Shown here: positions 28,834 through 49,124 of the stretch, piece by piece
Layout of the letters: each line of letters begins with the position of its first letter
Position numbering within the stretch: the stretch's first letter is position 1
Source of the DNA: Bacteroidales bacterium
GTDB lineage: Bacteria > Bacteroidota > Bacteroidia > Bacteroidales > WCHB1-69
Length of the DNA: 60,664 bases
Direction: 5' to 3'
Assembly: GCA_017551725.1 (NCBI GenBank)
Contig: JAFZKY010000031.1
Coordinates: forward strand, 1-60,664
Translations under genes and position numbers: made by a program
The notes under the pieces: generated by a model
Database searches by the model: none
Told to the model about the DNA's origin: nothing
What the model saw: the letters and a program-made list of their open reading frames with translations, nothing else

Positions 28834-30072
28834 ATGCCCAGCAGAAGAAAAGAATTGTTCCCCAACGTTACCGATGCAGAATGGAACGATTGGAGATGGC
28901 AGGTCCGCAACAGAGTGGAGACCCTTGAAGAACTGAAAAAATACATAGAGCTGACCCCAGAAGAGGAAGAAGGCGTGAAGAAATCGCTCGCGACACTCCG
29001 TATGGCCATCACGCCGTACTATTTGAGTTTGATTGATCCTGACAATCCGAAATGTCCGGTGCGCCGTCAGGCCATCCCTACGGCCGCTGAACTTTATCAG
29101 TCGCCCGCCGACCTGCTCGACCCGCTGCACGAGGATGAAGACTCTCCGGTGCCCGGTCTCACCCACCGTTATCCCGACAGAGTGTTGTTCCTCATCACGG
29201 ATATGTGCTCGATGTACTGCCGCCACTGCACCCGCAGACGTTTCGCTGGCCAGCACGATTGTGAGTCCACCCAGGACCGCATCCAAGCCGCCATCGACTA
29301 CATCGCCCGCACCCCGCAAGTGCGCGACGTGCTCCTTTCCGGTGGCGACGCGCTGATGGTGGGCGACAAGATGCTGGAATCCATCATCCAACGTCTGAGA
29401 GCCATCCCGCATGTGGAGATTATCCGTCTCGGCTCCCGTACCCCTGTGGTTTGCCCGCAGCGTATCACCGACGACTTGGTGAATATGTTGAAGAAATATC
29501 ATCCGATTTGGCTCAACACCCACTTCAACCACCCGAACGAGGTGACCGAAGAGGCGATGGCCGCTTGCGCCAAACTGGCGGATGCCGGTGTGCCGTTGGG
29601 TAACCAGACCGTGTTGTTGCGCGGCGTGAACGACGACACCGAGATTATGAAGCAACTCGTCCACGACCTCGTGCGTATGCGCGTGCGTCCGTACTACATC
29701 TACCAATGCGACCTTTCGATGGGTCTGGAGCATTTCCGCACGCCCGTCTCCAAGGGTATCGAGATTATCGAGAACCTGCGCGGACACACTTCCGGCTACT
29801 GTGTGCCGACCTTCGTGGTGGATGCTCCTGGCGGTGGTGGCAAAATTCCCGTCATGCCCAACTACGTGATCTCGCAGAGCCCGCACAAGGTTATCCTGCG
29901 CAACTACGAAGGCGTGATCACTACTTACACCGAGCCGTCTGACTATCAGGAGAATACCTGCAGCCCGCTGCCTGACAAGAAGCACGTCGAAGGCGTAGCC
30001 TCTTTGCTTCATGGTGAGCAGATGGCCCTCGAACCCAACGAGCTGGCTCGCAAGAAGAGACACAGAAAATAG
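28834..30072 (+). CDS. kamA: L-lysine 2,3-aminomutase
   Basis: This 412-residue radical-SAM, PLP-dependent enzyme converts L-lysine to L-beta-lysine. The cluster motif CSMYCRHC places Cys125, Cys129 and Cys132 exactly as in the well-studied clostridial enzyme. The lysine-binding aspartates (Asp293 in QCDLS, Asp330 in FVVDAPGGGGK) and PLP lysine (Lys337) also fall at the same numbers, which argues against a glutamate-2,3-aminomutase or the EF-P modifying EpmB. Beta-lysine can feed lysine fermentation or act as an osmolyte; none of the other fermentation genes is in the window. Confidence 0.93.
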   Translation: MPSRRKELFPNVTDAEWNDWRWQVRNRVETLEELKKYIELTPEEEEGVKKSLATLRMAITPYYLSLIDPDNPKCPVRRQAIPTAAELYQSPADLLDPLHEDEDSPVPGLTHRYPDRVLFLITDMCSMYCRHCTRRRFAGQHDCESTQDRIQAAIDYIARTPQVRDVLLSGGDALMVGDKMLESIIQRLRAIPHVEIIRLGSRTPVVCPQRITDDLVNMLKKYHPIWLNTHFNHPNEVTEEAMAACAKLADAGVPLGNQTVLLRGVNDDTEIMKQLVHDLVRMRVRPYYIYQCDLSMGLEHFRTPVSKGIEIIENLRGHTSGYCVPTFVVDAPGGGGKIPVMPNYVISQSPHKVILRNYEGVITTYTEPSDYQENTCSPLPDKKHVEGVASLLHGEQMALEPNELARKKRHRK

Positions 30073-30099
30073 TGGTCAGTGATCAGTGATTAGTAATCA

Positions 30100-30126
30100 G
30101 TAGAGACGGCAGGCGTGCCGTCTTCC
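30100..30126. repeat. GTAGAGACGG palindrome, degenerate copy
   Basis: GTAGAGACGGC-AGGCGT-GCCGTCTTCC is the same outer arm as the 28-bp palindromes at 30151 and 40688 with a different centre and a damaged right end. It follows a word-like run of GTGATCAGTGATTAGTAATC. Confidence 0.7.
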
Positions 30127-30150
30127 TAAATTACGAATATCCCAATGGTT

Positions 30151-30178
30151 GTAGAGACGGTATGCATACCGTCTCTAC
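30151..30178. repeat. GTAGAGACGG palindrome, perfect copy
   Basis: GTAGAGACGGTATG is followed immediately by its exact reverse complement, a perfect 28-bp palindrome. The same 28 bp occur at 40688-40715. It touches the stop codon of the cupin gene and lies between the convergent ends of kamA and that gene. Confidence 0.9.
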
Positions 30179-30522
30179 TATTTTAATATGCAGGCCAGAA
30201 AACGGACGTCCTTGCCGCTTTGGTTGGCGATGCTGTGGCGGGCGCCGTTGCCGGTGAACATCACGTCGCCGGCGTGCATGATGGCGGTTTGGCCGTTGTC
30301 AGTGACCTCAGCCTCCCCCTCTAAAATGTAGTAGATCTCGGCATCCTCAATGTGCGGGTGCTCCTTGATCCGACTTCCGGAAGGAAGGGTGATAATATTG
30401 AACATGGAGGCGCGCTCCAACATTTCCGCGGGAGTAAGGATGATGTCCTTGCAAATCCGGCCTTCGATGTTACCTTGGTTCTCCACGGTTTCAATCCGAA
30501 TGTCTTGTTTGTTTTTGATCAT
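30178..30522 (-). CDS. Single-domain cupin protein
   Basis: In this 114-residue cupin, motif 1 is seen around KEHPHIEDAEIYYILEGEAEV (metal-binding His and Glu candidates) and motif 2 as HAGDVMFTGNGARHSIAN. Such small cupins bind a metal and often a small ligand; no specific function can be assigned. The end of the gene touches a repeat palindrome. Its leader holds a long hyphenated palindrome that may be an operator. Confidence 0.8.
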   Translation of the reverse strand: MIKNKQDIRIETVENQGNIEGRICKDIILTPAEMLERASMFNIITLPSGSRIKEHPHIEDAEIYYILEGEAEVTDNGQTAIMHAGDVMFTGNGARHSIANQSGKDVRFLACILK

Positions 30523-30556
30523 TGTTGTATAGTTTGGTGGTTAATGTTTATCAGAT

Positions 30557-30625
30557 GAATCGTTCTATAGTGGAATAGTACGATTCAATAGAATCGTTGT
30601 TTATTCAGCAAAAATAGCAAAAATA
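30557..30625 (-). promoter_or_regulatory. Promoter and operator-like palindrome of the cupin gene
   Basis: Two overlapping-type minus-strand -7 boxes TATTTTTG occur at 30616-30609 and 30625-30618. Just downstream, GAATCGT (30557-30563) pairs with ACGATTC (30580-30586), with CTAT and ATAG nested inside, and a third GAATCGT lies at 30591-30597. The arms sit where a repressor would block initiation. The regulator is unknown. Confidence 0.55.
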
Positions 30626-30629
30626 TTAT

Positions 30630-30688
30630 TCCGCGGATCTCGCGTATCACGAGGAAAAATCCGTGCAGATCCTCGTGATCCGTGGAGA
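30630..30688 (+). repeat. CCGCGGATC imperfect palindrome, unit A
   Basis: A 59-bp unit with outer arms TCCGCGGAT / ATCCGTGGA and inner arms TCACGAGGA / TCCTCGTGA. It has the same orientation as units B (30695) and C (31233). Confidence 0.85.
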
Positions 30689-30694
30689 GAATAA

Positions 30695-30755
30695 TCCGCG
30701 AATCGCGCGTATCGCGAGGAAACAAATCCGTGCAGATTCGCGTGATCCGTGGAGA
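30695..30755 (+). repeat. CCGCGGATC imperfect palindrome, unit B
   Basis: A 61-bp relative of unit A. Where A has GGATC in the left arm and GATCC in the right, B has GAATC and GATTC, a paired change that keeps the stem. It ends 19 bp from the GxxExxY stop. Confidence 0.85.
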
Positions 30756-30774
30756 TAATAAGTCGAGGAGATTG

Positions 30775-31164
30775 TCACTTGTTCCGTAACACCTTGTACC
30801 CGTCCTTGAAATCCCCTACATCAAAATTGATGAGCAAGCCCGTTGGTATGTTCAACAGTTTCATATAGGTCCTCGTCTGTTTGAAATGAACCGGCACCAA
30901 ATACTCAACCGCTTTCAATTCAACCACAATCGATTTCTCCACGAGCAAATCAAGGCGAAGATCATCGGAAATGCAGTAACCTTTGTACATCACCGCTACG
31001 GGAACCTGTGATTGCACAAATAAATCCCTCAATATCAGTTCTTTGAACAGTGCCTTTTGATAAATACTTTCCAAAAGTCCTGGACCAAGATGGTTGTACA
31101 CCTCCATTGCGCCACCGATAATCTCGTAGATTAATTCGTTTTCTGTATATTTCTTTCTTGTCAT
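30775..31164 (-). CDS. GxxExxY family protein (PD-(D/E)XK-like)
   Basis: This 129-residue protein contains the naming motif GPGLLESIYQKAL, the PD-(D/E)XK-like core LRLDLLVEKSIVVELKAVE (Asp, then Glu-x-Lys) and the closing QTRTYMKLLNIPTGLLINFD. The fold is that of restriction-type nucleases, but activity of the family is not established. Length is normal. It has two palindromic units just after its stop and a third about 70 bp upstream of its start, all in one orientation. A decayed relative lies at 48936-49091, also between repeats. Confidence 0.9.
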   Translation of the reverse strand: MTRKKYTENELIYEIIGGAMEVYNHLGPGLLESIYQKALFKELILRDLFVQSQVPVAVMYKGYCISDDLRLDLLVEKSIVVELKAVEYLVPVHFKQTRTYMKLLNIPTGLLINFDVGDFKDGYKVLRNK

Positions 31165-31232
31165 AACATAATATTTATCTAATACTATGATAACGATAAA
31201 TTAATTCTATTATTGTTTTTGTAAATATTTTT

Positions 31233-31293
31233 TCCGCGGATCTCGCGTATCACGAGGACAACAATCCGCGTAGATCCTCGTGATCCGTGGAGA
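31233..31293 (+). repeat. CCGCGGATC imperfect palindrome, unit C
   Basis: A 61-bp unit matching A almost throughout the arms, on the other side of the GxxExxY gene and in the same orientation. The following gene starts 33 bp later, so its promoter must overlap or follow this unit. Confidence 0.85.
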
Positions 31294-31326
31294 TAAAAAA
31301 AACGTATCTTCGCACTCTATTATTCA

Positions 31327-32556
31327 ATGATGATGAAAAAGATTGCAATCCTGTTATTCTGCTGTATTTCAACAATTTTTGCATTCGCCAACGACGGCGT
31401 CTTCTACGCTGCCGGCAACCAGCTGATACCCATTACCGAGACCGACATCAGCGTGAAGAAGGAGGTGCTGACTATCAACCGTGTGGGCGACCATCTGGAG
31501 GTGATCGTCTATTACGAATTCTTCAACCCCGTGGGCGAGAAGGAGTTGCTGGTGGGATTCGAGGCCAAGTCGCCTTACAACAGCATGGCGGACGCTTTCG
31601 AAATGCTTCCGAAGCACCCTCACATCCACAATTTCAAGGTGGCGATGAACGGCGAGCCACTTCCATACGATATTGCGAACGTGGATATCGGGCGCTACGA
31701 TAAACACGACAATTACATTCCTTCGTCATACTACGTCAACGGACACTTCCTGCACTGGAGCCCGCAGCAGATTAAAGACACACTGGCCGCTTGGGGCGAC
31801 CCGCCCGGTCTCCCCATCGACTATGTCTATCACTTCAAGGCAAAATTCCGGCCCGGTCTGAACATCATCTACCACACTTACGAGTTCGACCTTTCTTTCT
31901 CTATCGGTGAGGAATATTATTTTCCCTACGTACTAACCGCCGCCAACCGCTGGGCCAACCACCAAATCGACGACTTTCTGCTGTTGGTCAACATGGGCGA
32001 CCACGAGTCGTTCTTCATCGAACCGGATTTTTTTCAAAGTCCTGACGAATGGCAATTCCTCGGGAAAGGCAAAACCACGACATTCTTTTCTTTATACCCT
32101 ACGAAAAAGGAAGTCCCGGTTTTCCATATCCAAGAAGGCAGCCTTTCCTTCCGAAAGACCAACTTTCACCCAAAAGGTGAATTGCATCTCATCAATAGCA
32201 ACACCATTAATTACACTTTCGGCGAAGGTGACGACGCTCCTTCTTTTACAGAGACATTGGCAAAACAATATTATTCCTATTCTGAACTGCTGGCAGCCCT
32301 TCGACATGAATTCACGAATTCGCTGATTCCATCCGACACCGACTACGAATACAACTACGACACCCTCGTCACCCCCGAGCAACGCCGCATCCTCAAGAAT
32401 CTGCCCTTCGCCTACCGCGGATACATTTTCAAAACCAAAGCGTTACAAGACTATTTCGAATCCACCCAATGGTATATTCCCAATCCCGAATACAACGGCA
32501 ATATGGAGATGATGACGGCGGAGGAGAAAAAGTGGGTTCAGCTCTGGAGCAAATAG
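31327..32556 (+). CDS. Secreted YARHG-domain protein
   Basis: This 409-residue protein has a signal peptide (KKIAILLFCCISTIFAFA), then an N-terminal part resembling DUF4424 (NDGVFYAAGNQLIPITETDI, VYYEFFNPVGEKELLVGFEA). The last 70 residues are a YARHG domain (LKNLPFAYRGYIFKTKALQD, STQWYIPN), a small extracellular domain presumed to bind cell wall or other ligands. The usual YARHG tetrad reads AYRGY here. Three consecutive Met codons allow alternative starts. It stands alone between repeat unit C and kdsA. Confidence 0.8.
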   Translation: MMMKKIAILLFCCISTIFAFANDGVFYAAGNQLIPITETDISVKKEVLTINRVGDHLEVIVYYEFFNPVGEKELLVGFEAKSPYNSMADAFEMLPKHPHIHNFKVAMNGEPLPYDIANVDIGRYDKHDNYIPSSYYVNGHFLHWSPQQIKDTLAAWGDPPGLPIDYVYHFKAKFRPGLNIIYHTYEFDLSFSIGEEYYFPYVLTAANRWANHQIDDFLLLVNMGDHESFFIEPDFFQSPDEWQFLGKGKTTTFFSLYPTKKEVPVFHIQEGSLSFRKTNFHPKGELHLINSNTINYTFGEGDDAPSFTETLAKQYYSYSELLAALRHEFTNSLIPSDTDYEYNYDTLVTPEQRRILKNLPFAYRGYIFKTKALQDYFESTQWYIPNPEYNGNMEMMTAEEKKWVQLWSK

Positions 32557-35625: not shown

Positions 35626-35653
35626 GTAGAGACGCAGTGCATTGCGTCTCTAC
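35626..35653. repeat. GTAGAGACG palindrome, variant centre
   Basis: GTAGAGACGCA-GTGCAT-TGCGTCTCTAC has the same outer arm as the 30151 and 40688 palindromes, but the inner arm is changed on both sides so that pairing is kept. Confidence 0.85.
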
Positions 35654-40687: not shown

Positions 40688-40715
40688 GTAGAGACGGTAT
40701 GCATACCGTCTCTAC
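40688..40715. repeat. GTAGAGACGG palindrome inside the ior operon
   Basis: This 28-bp perfect palindrome is identical to that at 30151-30178. It sits between iorA and iorB, so in the transcript it would form a 14-pair hairpin that could stabilise or separate the two messages. Confidence 0.9.
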
Positions 40716-48847: not shown

Positions 48848-48850
48848 ATT

Positions 48851-48879
48851 TAACGCAAAGAAAAATAAGGCGCAAAGGA
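48851..48879. repeat. CGCAAAG repeat, left of GxxExxY remnant
   Basis: TAACGCAAAG and GGCGCAAAGG are separated by nine bases. The reverse complement of 49094-49124 carries the same words in the same order, so the two form a loose inverted repeat around the fragment at 48936-49091. Confidence 0.6.
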
Positions 48880-48935
48880 TTTATTTGAAAAAATATTCTA
48901 ACTTTTTTATACAATAATTTAAAAATTCTAAAGTT

Positions 48936-49091
48936 ATGTGTGCTGTCAACAGCGTGGCTGCTTTGGCTGGTATCCACATGGCGCAAACGTTGACATATCT
49001 TCGGTTAGGAGGTTATAAATTAGGCTTGCTAATGAATTTCAATGTGGAGTTGATGAAGCAGGGAATCAAACGGGTTGTGAACGGTCTCTAA
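48936..49091 (+). pseudogene. C-terminal remnant of a GxxExxY gene
   Basis: The 51-codon frame ends QTLTYLRLGGYKLGLLMNFN, then VELMKQGIKRVVNGL and a stop. This is the standard end of GxxExxY proteins (QLLTYLKL-x-GLLINFNV-x-L-x-GIKR). The preceding ALAGIHMA also matches the family (x-L-P-IHEA), but the GxxExxY motif and nuclease core are missing. It is on the opposite strand to its neighbours and lies between CGCAAAG repeats. Confidence 0.82.
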
Positions 49092-49093
49092 AA

Positions 49094-49124
49094 CTTTGCG
49101 ACCTCTTTGCGCCCTTCGCGTTTA
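49094..49124. repeat. CGCAAAG repeat, right of GxxExxY remnant
   Basis: CTTTGCG, CTTTGCGCCC and CGCGTTTA follow the remnant's stop within 33 bp and run into the tonB stop codon. In reverse complement this mirrors 48851-48879. Confidence 0.6.

Follow-up and report, generated by a model that had tools for sequence, protein, structure and literature searches.

What connects a small GxxExxY gene with the palindromic repeats on either side of it? The question is raised by the window examined here, the whole 60,664-nucleotide stretch of DNA (contig JAFZKY010000031.1) from a Bacteroidales bacterium, which is part of a 2.3-Mb draft genome in 66 contigs. A sequence-only reading had placed three repeat units in the same orientation, beginning at 30630, 30695 and 31233, around the gene, and all three are present there. 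Unit A (30630..30690, plus strand; unit-model match 30630-30689) consists of three 9-nt words of the CGYGNATCN type, a short loop and three inverted words. Unit B (30695..30757, plus strand) follows directly, and unit C (31233..31295, plus strand) lies upstream of the GxxExxY gene (30775..31164, minus strand) and within the promoter region of its neighbour, which encodes a YARHG-domain protein (31327..32556, plus strand). Aligned without gaps, A is 66% and C 84% identical to B, and a 19-nt core, TCCTCGTGATCCGTGGAGA, occurs three times in the window at up to three mismatches, against 0.02 occurrences expected. Rfam returned two matches within 30000-32000, both far below the gathering score, and a known RNA family was ruled out for the units on these scores. 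Solo units with a longer loop (~91 bp in all) were also seen at L286, L287 and L288, where two or three of them stand around similar small genes; by eye, genes and units look as if they had been duplicated together.

Each of the three units folds better than its shuffles (z -3.3 to -3.5 as DNA, -3.5 to -5.4 as RNA). The sequence-only reading had taken a two-sided difference in unit B (GAATC/GATTC versus GGATC/GATCC) for a compensatory change that maintains a hairpin, and this is not what the folds bear out, since the stretches named are not partners in them. When any of the three units is folded as RNA, GGATC/GAATC on the 5´ side (columns 6-10) lies opposite columns 57-61; the 3´ stretch altered in unit B occupies columns 47-51 and is not its partner, and the altered A of unit B (column 7) is opposite an unaltered C (column 60). 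As DNA, unit A folds in an alternative way, and there too the two stretches are not opposite each other. The proposed covariance analysis was carried out on an alignment of 21 related units, taken from the window, its genome and its relatives. The covariation score was 0.112 and that of column shuffles 0.116, with 315 of the 500 shuffles equalling or exceeding the score of the units; the named structure left 80.6% of cells paired, compared with 80.3% in the shuffles. By RNAalifold, one pair of 15 has changes on both sides, and the covariation term is +0.35. Sliding the structure by 1-3 columns did worse (27-50% paired, score 0.03-0.07), as expected when the fold has been taken from these same sequences. 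Properly aligned, the paired changes do not rise above the level of column shuffles, and hairpin covariation was rejected on these 21 units. The arms pair because both are made of the same iterated word, and it is this 9-nt word, CGYGNATCN, with three copies in one arm and three inverted copies in the other, that the units conserve; columns 7, 11 and 16 vary freely. We therefore dropped the upkeep of a hairpin by compensatory change and replaced it with conservation of the iterated word.

The gene between the units encodes a protein of 129 amino acids that is a clear member of the GxxExxY (TIGR04256; E 2.1e-38, 131.3 bits, cut-off 35) and PDDEXK_3 (PF13366; E 2.5e-39, 134.7 bits, cut-off 22) families, with scores above both curated cut-offs and the characteristic residues kept: D72, E82-x-K84, Q96, Y100 and the GxxExxY motif. 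These were its only profile matches, with none to S23p or four-helix-bundle families, and the two family entries, as shown, name a fold or a motif only. The residues together with the family name suggest a nuclease of the PD-(D/E)XK type. The D, ExK and QxxxY pattern is shared with nucleases of the RecB/Cas4 and T7 endonuclease I types, QxxxY being a pattern known from RecB/Cas4 nucleases, but the profile matches to these types are not significant. A search of solved-structure profiles gave endonuclease I at E 0.47 and 0.58 and Cas4 at E 1.1, values equalled by two matches to the unrelated S100-A8, and a PDB sequence search with the window protein was empty. A protein 98% identical to it comes from a Paludibacteraceae MAG from water-buffalo omasum. 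The window copy is intergenic, between a cupin gene (30178-30522) and the YARHG gene, and lies outside any rRNA gene.

The catalytic pattern is widely kept. Among 163 aligned proteins D72 is present in 161, E82, K84, Q96 and Y100 in 160 each, G29 and Y35 in 162 and E32 in 158. A narrower alignment of 60 proteins (from 70) had given the pattern as invariant, which was too strong; it omitted a duplicate of the window protein and nine others (L055, L104, L105, L106, L108, L112, L230, L238 and L242), three of which had lost the pattern, and the figures for all 163 stand. For the gene itself, dN is far below dS against both L037 (0.007 and 0.089) and L040 (0.14 and 1.48), so the protein is kept by purifying selection. 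The three proteins that lack the catalytic pattern (L105, L106 and L108) come from genes without flanking arrays (scores 14-18 inverted, 16-20 direct), whereas 23 of the 76 other genes are array-less. The chance of this is ~0.03 by a hand calculation, for a coincidence noticed afterwards rather than predicted and for three genes that are probably one lineage. Joint loss of this kind would be expected were an active nuclease and its arrays dependent on each other. By eye the three occupy one conserved place before a phosphomutase-like gene, and they are possibly domesticated copies.

GxxExxY genes were found in 53 of 100, and four-helix-bundle/S23 genes in 52 of 60, of the relatives' genomes searched. 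A role in anti-phage defence or as a phage gene was rejected for the window protein: it matched 0 PADLOC families, a tblastn search of 50,697 phage records was empty at E 1e-5, and its matches in PHROGs reached only E 0.24 and 0.25. As annotated, one Sphingomonas genome (L251) carries a GxxExxY gene between fabD and fabG of a fatty-acid operon, and a Novosphingobium locus (L045) looks similar by eye. Tandem pairs of GxxExxY genes lie within ~1 kb of each other at G129:C1:1593381-1594196 and G191:C4:68683-69764.

If gene and repeat belong together, units should lie near GxxExxY genes more often than chance allows, and this enrichment had been proposed as a check. A unit model run on 40 congeneric genomes found 60 distinct unit places (E up to about 7e-7), and 18 of them lie within 500 bp of a GxxExxY gene, where ~0.04 would be expected. 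The 13 best-scoring places are all within this distance; since the model was built mostly from gene-linked units, the score ranking is partly circular, the count against chance less so. The units are also scattered, as the sequence-only reading had allowed they might be if it was wrong, but the lack of enrichment that would have gone with this is not seen. For 42 of the 60 places there is no GxxExxY gene within 500 bp on the same contig, and some of these are at contig ends, where the gene may have been cut off. Fifteen fetched regions, covering 20 of the 42 solo places, held no GxxExxY or four-helix-bundle match at E 0.01, and one genome (G007) has units and no GxxExxY match. Five GxxExxY matches below the family cut-off (G002:C71, G003:C219, G012:C58, G013:C82 and G028:C9) were not counted as genes. 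Given this enrichment, the idea of a unit made up of the nuclease-like gene and the repeat stands, and it is further supported by an association that extends well beyond the repeat of the window.

This wider association appears when the flanks of GxxExxY genes are compared with each other irrespective of their letters. We defined facing arrays by a local score of at least 28 when the 250 bp upstream of a gene are aligned with the reverse complement of the 250 bp downstream. The set comprised 84 GxxExxY genes (that of the window, 80 from relatives and three from distant records; 81 from Bacteroidales genomes), of which 79 could be scored; many of the 80 relative loci come from one genus, and orthologous places are counted more than once. 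Flanks shorter than 120 bp went unscored, which affected 5 of these 84 genes, 1 of 31 phylum-wide genes, 1 of the 40 later loci described below and 74 of 547 control ORFs. Facing arrays flank 41 of 79 GxxExxY genes, compared with 5 of 473 control ORFs on the same contigs; they also flank 17 of 30 phylum-wide GxxExxY genes and 3 of 8 from plasmids of five phyla. When direct flanking repeats are counted along with inverted ones, the numbers are 53/79, 21/30 and 6/8, and 17/473 for controls, and among 1979 random 400-bp spans the share at score 30 was 0.00. Twenty-six of the 79 genes have neither kind of repeat at threshold, only three of which have lost the catalytic pattern. The letters of the words vary by locus (CACAGAG, CGCAAAG, CGCGGATC, CACAGTGTT, GCGAATTT and others), and of 61 loci with facing arrays, 43 have the purine-rich strand directed towards the gene and 13 have it directed away.

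The spacing of the words follows the gene family. Counting 5-mer self-matches in 300-bp flanks, with observed counts held to a maximum of 20 per locus, we obtained for the 84 GxxExxY genes 693 at lag 9 (93 shuffled), 367 at lag 10 (83) and 421 at lag 18 (91). For 35 genes of the four-helix-bundle/S23 family (TIGR02436) the peaks fall elsewhere, with 497 at lag 7 (37), 392 at lag 14 (37) and 311 at lag 21 (36). The aggregate period is thus 9-10 nt at GxxExxY genes and 7 nt at four-helix-bundle/S23 genes, which carry facing 7-nt arrays in 28 of 35 cases in a first set (L128-L157) and in 16 of 20 in a later one (L361-L380). Among the control ORFs (L048-L127) lag 7 passes in 69 of 473 and lag 9 in 22 of 473; the 7-nt class of arrays is more scattered than the 9-nt class, and gene-less 7-nt arrays are common.

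Many GxxExxY words also share a core, CRCRRWK, which is chained at intervals of 8-11 nt at 42 of 79 and 31 of 38 GxxExxY loci, compared with 1 of 35 four-helix-bundle loci and 16 of 473 controls; the reversed motif reaches 5% or less. This core was spotted by eye on the same loci, and a prediction was then fixed before unseen loci were scored, namely more than 50% of GxxExxY and less than 10% of four-helix-bundle loci. The later GxxExxY loci were the next 40 matches, apart from two (one beside a locus already used, one at a contig edge), and the 20 later four-helix-bundle loci were likewise the next matches and mostly from the genus of the window; coming from the same searches, they are not an independent sample of bacteria. 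Chained CRCRRWK was found at 20 of 39 GxxExxY loci, a narrow pass, and at 0 of 20 four-helix-bundle loci, and facing arrays, by the test as already fixed, were found at 27 of 39 and 16 of 20, respectively. Scored locus by locus, lag 9 or 10 appears in 15 of 39 GxxExxY and 2 of 20 four-helix-bundle loci, and lag 7 in 3 of 39 and 15 of 20, so the per-locus period is less clean than the aggregate one.

Words and proteins also change together. Among non-syntenic pairs of loci, whose outer flanks show no relationship, the share with common words (cosine of at least 0.2) rises from 1.6% at 30-40% protein identity to 14% at 50-60%, 25% at 60-70% and 83% (n=30) at 70-80%; from 80% upwards, 9 of 9 pairs have common words. 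Across 121 loci the similarity of words follows that of proteins with a Mantel r of 0.36 (0 of 2000 permutations). With pairs restricted to those between taxonomic families (161 loci), the trend is weaker (r 0.27, 0 of 2000), going from 2% to 9 of 21 at 70% identity or more. These comparisons leave out L062, L248 and loci with fewer than three repeated 6-mers, and the permutation ignores shared ancestry. Exceptions occur, with unlike words at 83% (L119/L329) and 80% (L354/L356) protein identity. Three observations are firm: arrays are associated with the gene, the period holds in aggregate, and word and gene are inherited in a correlated way. The correlation would fit whole-cassette transfer, recognition of the words by the protein, or both.

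At matching sites, units vary in presence and number. The promoter orthologous to that of the YARHG gene, which in the window holds unit C, has a decayed solo unit in G005 (L159) and half units in G015 (L171) and G025 (L170), and at the corresponding promoter in the closely related locus L037 there is a solo 62-nt unit identical to unit C. In this comparison, which rests on plus-strand loci and a two-strand unit search, L159-L187 held no other unit apart from one ~1.3 kb upstream in G030 (L161). L037 also has a GxxExxY gene with two units, 3.7 kb from the promoter and 95% identical to the window over 683 bp, in a block that includes ~90 bp of the promoter and 5´ end of the YARHG gene. A single unit stands there in place of A and B, with the outer edge of A and the inner edge of B. 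The window itself holds a second locus, in the gap between the tonB-like and folC-like genes, where a GxxExxY remnant (48903..49091, plus strand) matches profile positions 60-116, the C-terminal half, with one internal stop. To its left is an array of CGCAAAG-type words (48850..48879, plus strand) and to its right an inverted array of CTTTGCG-type words (49093..49124, minus strand). This decayed copy, with arrays different from those of units A to C, had been overlooked by the sequence-only reading, as had the 9-nt word. The same gap in relatives contains GxxExxY genes free of internal stops and accompanied by arrays, or arrays of other words; G030 has a single gene-less array, and G023 and G031 have no array. 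A third site, that of the unit in L006, has units in G019 and G013 and a half unit in G039, and nine other loci, inspected by eye, have no unit within 230 bp. Across congeners, neither a target-site duplication nor an exact insertion boundary was found at the YARHG promoter, the tonB-folC gap or the L006 site, because the flanks differ too much for a boundary to be set, and though sites with and without units exist, none of those compared gave a clean empty site with both flanks.

We suggest that gene and arrays form a mobile element and that the nuclease spreads the word arrays by reading and cutting them. This is the most likely of the explanations considered, held with about as much doubt as confidence; the cleavage, the form of the substrate and the route of copying are inferred. 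The element would comprise a small PD-(D/E)XK-type nuclease gene with the QxxxY motif and inverted arrays of a 9-nt word. In its common form, some three words per side would face each other, so that a single long, imperfect palindrome would have the gene as its loop; in the form seen in the window, complete palindromic units, each of three words, a loop and three inverted words, would stand on both sides of the gene. The nuclease may recognise the words, and would probably do so when the array forms a hairpin, a cruciform or a single strand during replication, nicking it there. If the nick is then repaired from the opposite arm or a further array, words could be copied to a new place, at times together with the gene, and the arms would be kept alike. 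Gene-less units would be non-autonomous copies or leftovers.

The most serious competitor, though we think it clearly less probable, is that the arrays are portable homology: the cassettes would be moved by homologous or illegitimate recombination of the host, with the nuclease a passenger or otherwise employed. The single unit of L037, joining the outer edge of A to the inner edge of B, looks like the product of recombination between repeats, and the neighbour's ~90 bp of promoter and 5´ end in the same block means that DNA outside the units moved too; the correlation of word and protein would also follow from whole-cassette transfer alone. What host recombination leaves unexplained are the different periods at two unrelated families, the CRCRRWK-type words at GxxExxY loci on plasmids of other phyla, and the strong purifying selection on the protein. 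It is unlikely that the element acts at the level of RNA, as an intervening sequence of rRNA does, with arms that pair in the transcript, a hairpin trimmed by host RNase III and an insertion that is tolerated as a result. Intervening sequences of 23S rRNA are described in PMC4990558 as a small S23/four-helix-bundle ORF between terminal inverted repeats, and they resemble the present element in having an ORF as the loop between such repeats. The S23 genes surveyed here, members of the family found inside these sequences, carry similar facing arrays (28/35 and 16/20), which suggests a common kind of element, and the RNA folds of the units beat their shuffles. The element of the window differs, however, in lying outside rRNA, between protein genes, in encoding a GxxExxY protein and in having a period of 9-10 rather than 7 nt; its covariation is not above column shuffles, and its conserved residues are, by family name, those of a DNA-nuclease superfamily.

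Two further explanations would make the GxxExxY gene a bystander or a chance neighbour. Regulatory hairpins, either terminators or mRNA stabilisers, could be maintained by selection on the adjacent genes, and unit C does lie just before the start of the next gene. We consider this very improbable, since two terminator-like sites were found and neither is inside a unit, different loci carry different words, one gene family is linked to the arrays far more often than controls are, and at orthologous promoters the unit may be whole, half or missing. Still harder to credit is that the units are REP sequences moved in trans by an HuH (Y1) transposase. The sequence-only reading had drawn this analogy, which holds for behaviour: both are short imperfect palindromes, mismatches included, linked to an enzyme gene and accompanied by scattered intergenic solo copies, and Y1_Tnp genes occur in 36 of the 40 congeneric genomes, that of the window included. 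It does not hold for membership. REP/RAYT systems are defined (PMC8266576) by a GTAG/CGTC tag 5´ to the palindrome and by an HuH (Y1) transposase, whereas the enzyme here is of the PD-(D/E)XK type and the unit is an iterated 9-nt word. No tag stands beside units A, B or C, and with 87 Y1_Tnp genes listed, none of the 60 units is within 800 bp of one (the nearest is at 1.5 kb), compared with 18 within 500 bp of a GxxExxY gene; with neither tag nor linked Y1 transposase, REP/RAYT membership was ruled out. Palindromes of typical REP form with a GTAG tag (GTAGAGACG...CGTCTC) make up a separate set, distinct from the units, at 30100-30124, 30151-30178, 35626-35653 and 40688-40715 of the window, with 16 forward and 13 reverse matches in its genome at up to two mismatches.

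The proposed nuclease-driven element also differs from MITEs and other non-autonomous elements, which the solo units resemble in looking like gene-less derivatives, in that no target-site duplication was seen and its ends are tandem words rather than a single inverted repeat. Homing endonuclease genes have an intron or intein as host and cut at the empty allele; the copy in the window was seen in an intergenic position. Each known kind that could be tested has a defining feature that the element lacks; it is on this ground, and not on a known mechanism, that we count it as a new kind. Arrays linked to GxxExxY are not reported in the available portions of PMC8934634, PMC4990558, PMC5524665, PMC11270868, PMC8700078 and PMC8266576. 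In the open-access literature searched we found no report of GxxExxY-linked repeats and no function for either GxxExxY or four-helix-bundle/S23 proteins, and the word letters GCAAAGACGCAAAG gave a match on satellite DNA only.

A wider reading, which we put forward tentatively and with more doubt than the element itself, is that each of two small, unrelated proteins has mobile inverted word arrays of its own and sets the length of the word, 9-10 nt for GxxExxY and 7 nt for S23, with the letters drifting along with the protein. The arrays could then serve as repeated recognition ladders, for S23 perhaps with one word per subunit; the Xanthomonas homologue of S23 is reportedly a five-part ring. 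On the same reading, the intervening sequences of rRNA would be S23 elements that landed in rRNA and were made harmless there by RNase III. The origin of these sequences is called unclear in PMC4990558. The family-specific period and the correlated inheritance give GxxExxY and S23 proteins a testable job, namely that each protein reads its own array. If this is true, the two families would represent a new class of bacterial mobile element, one that would account for a large set of short intergenic repeats, both tandem and palindromic, and would provide an origin for the intervening sequences of rRNA.
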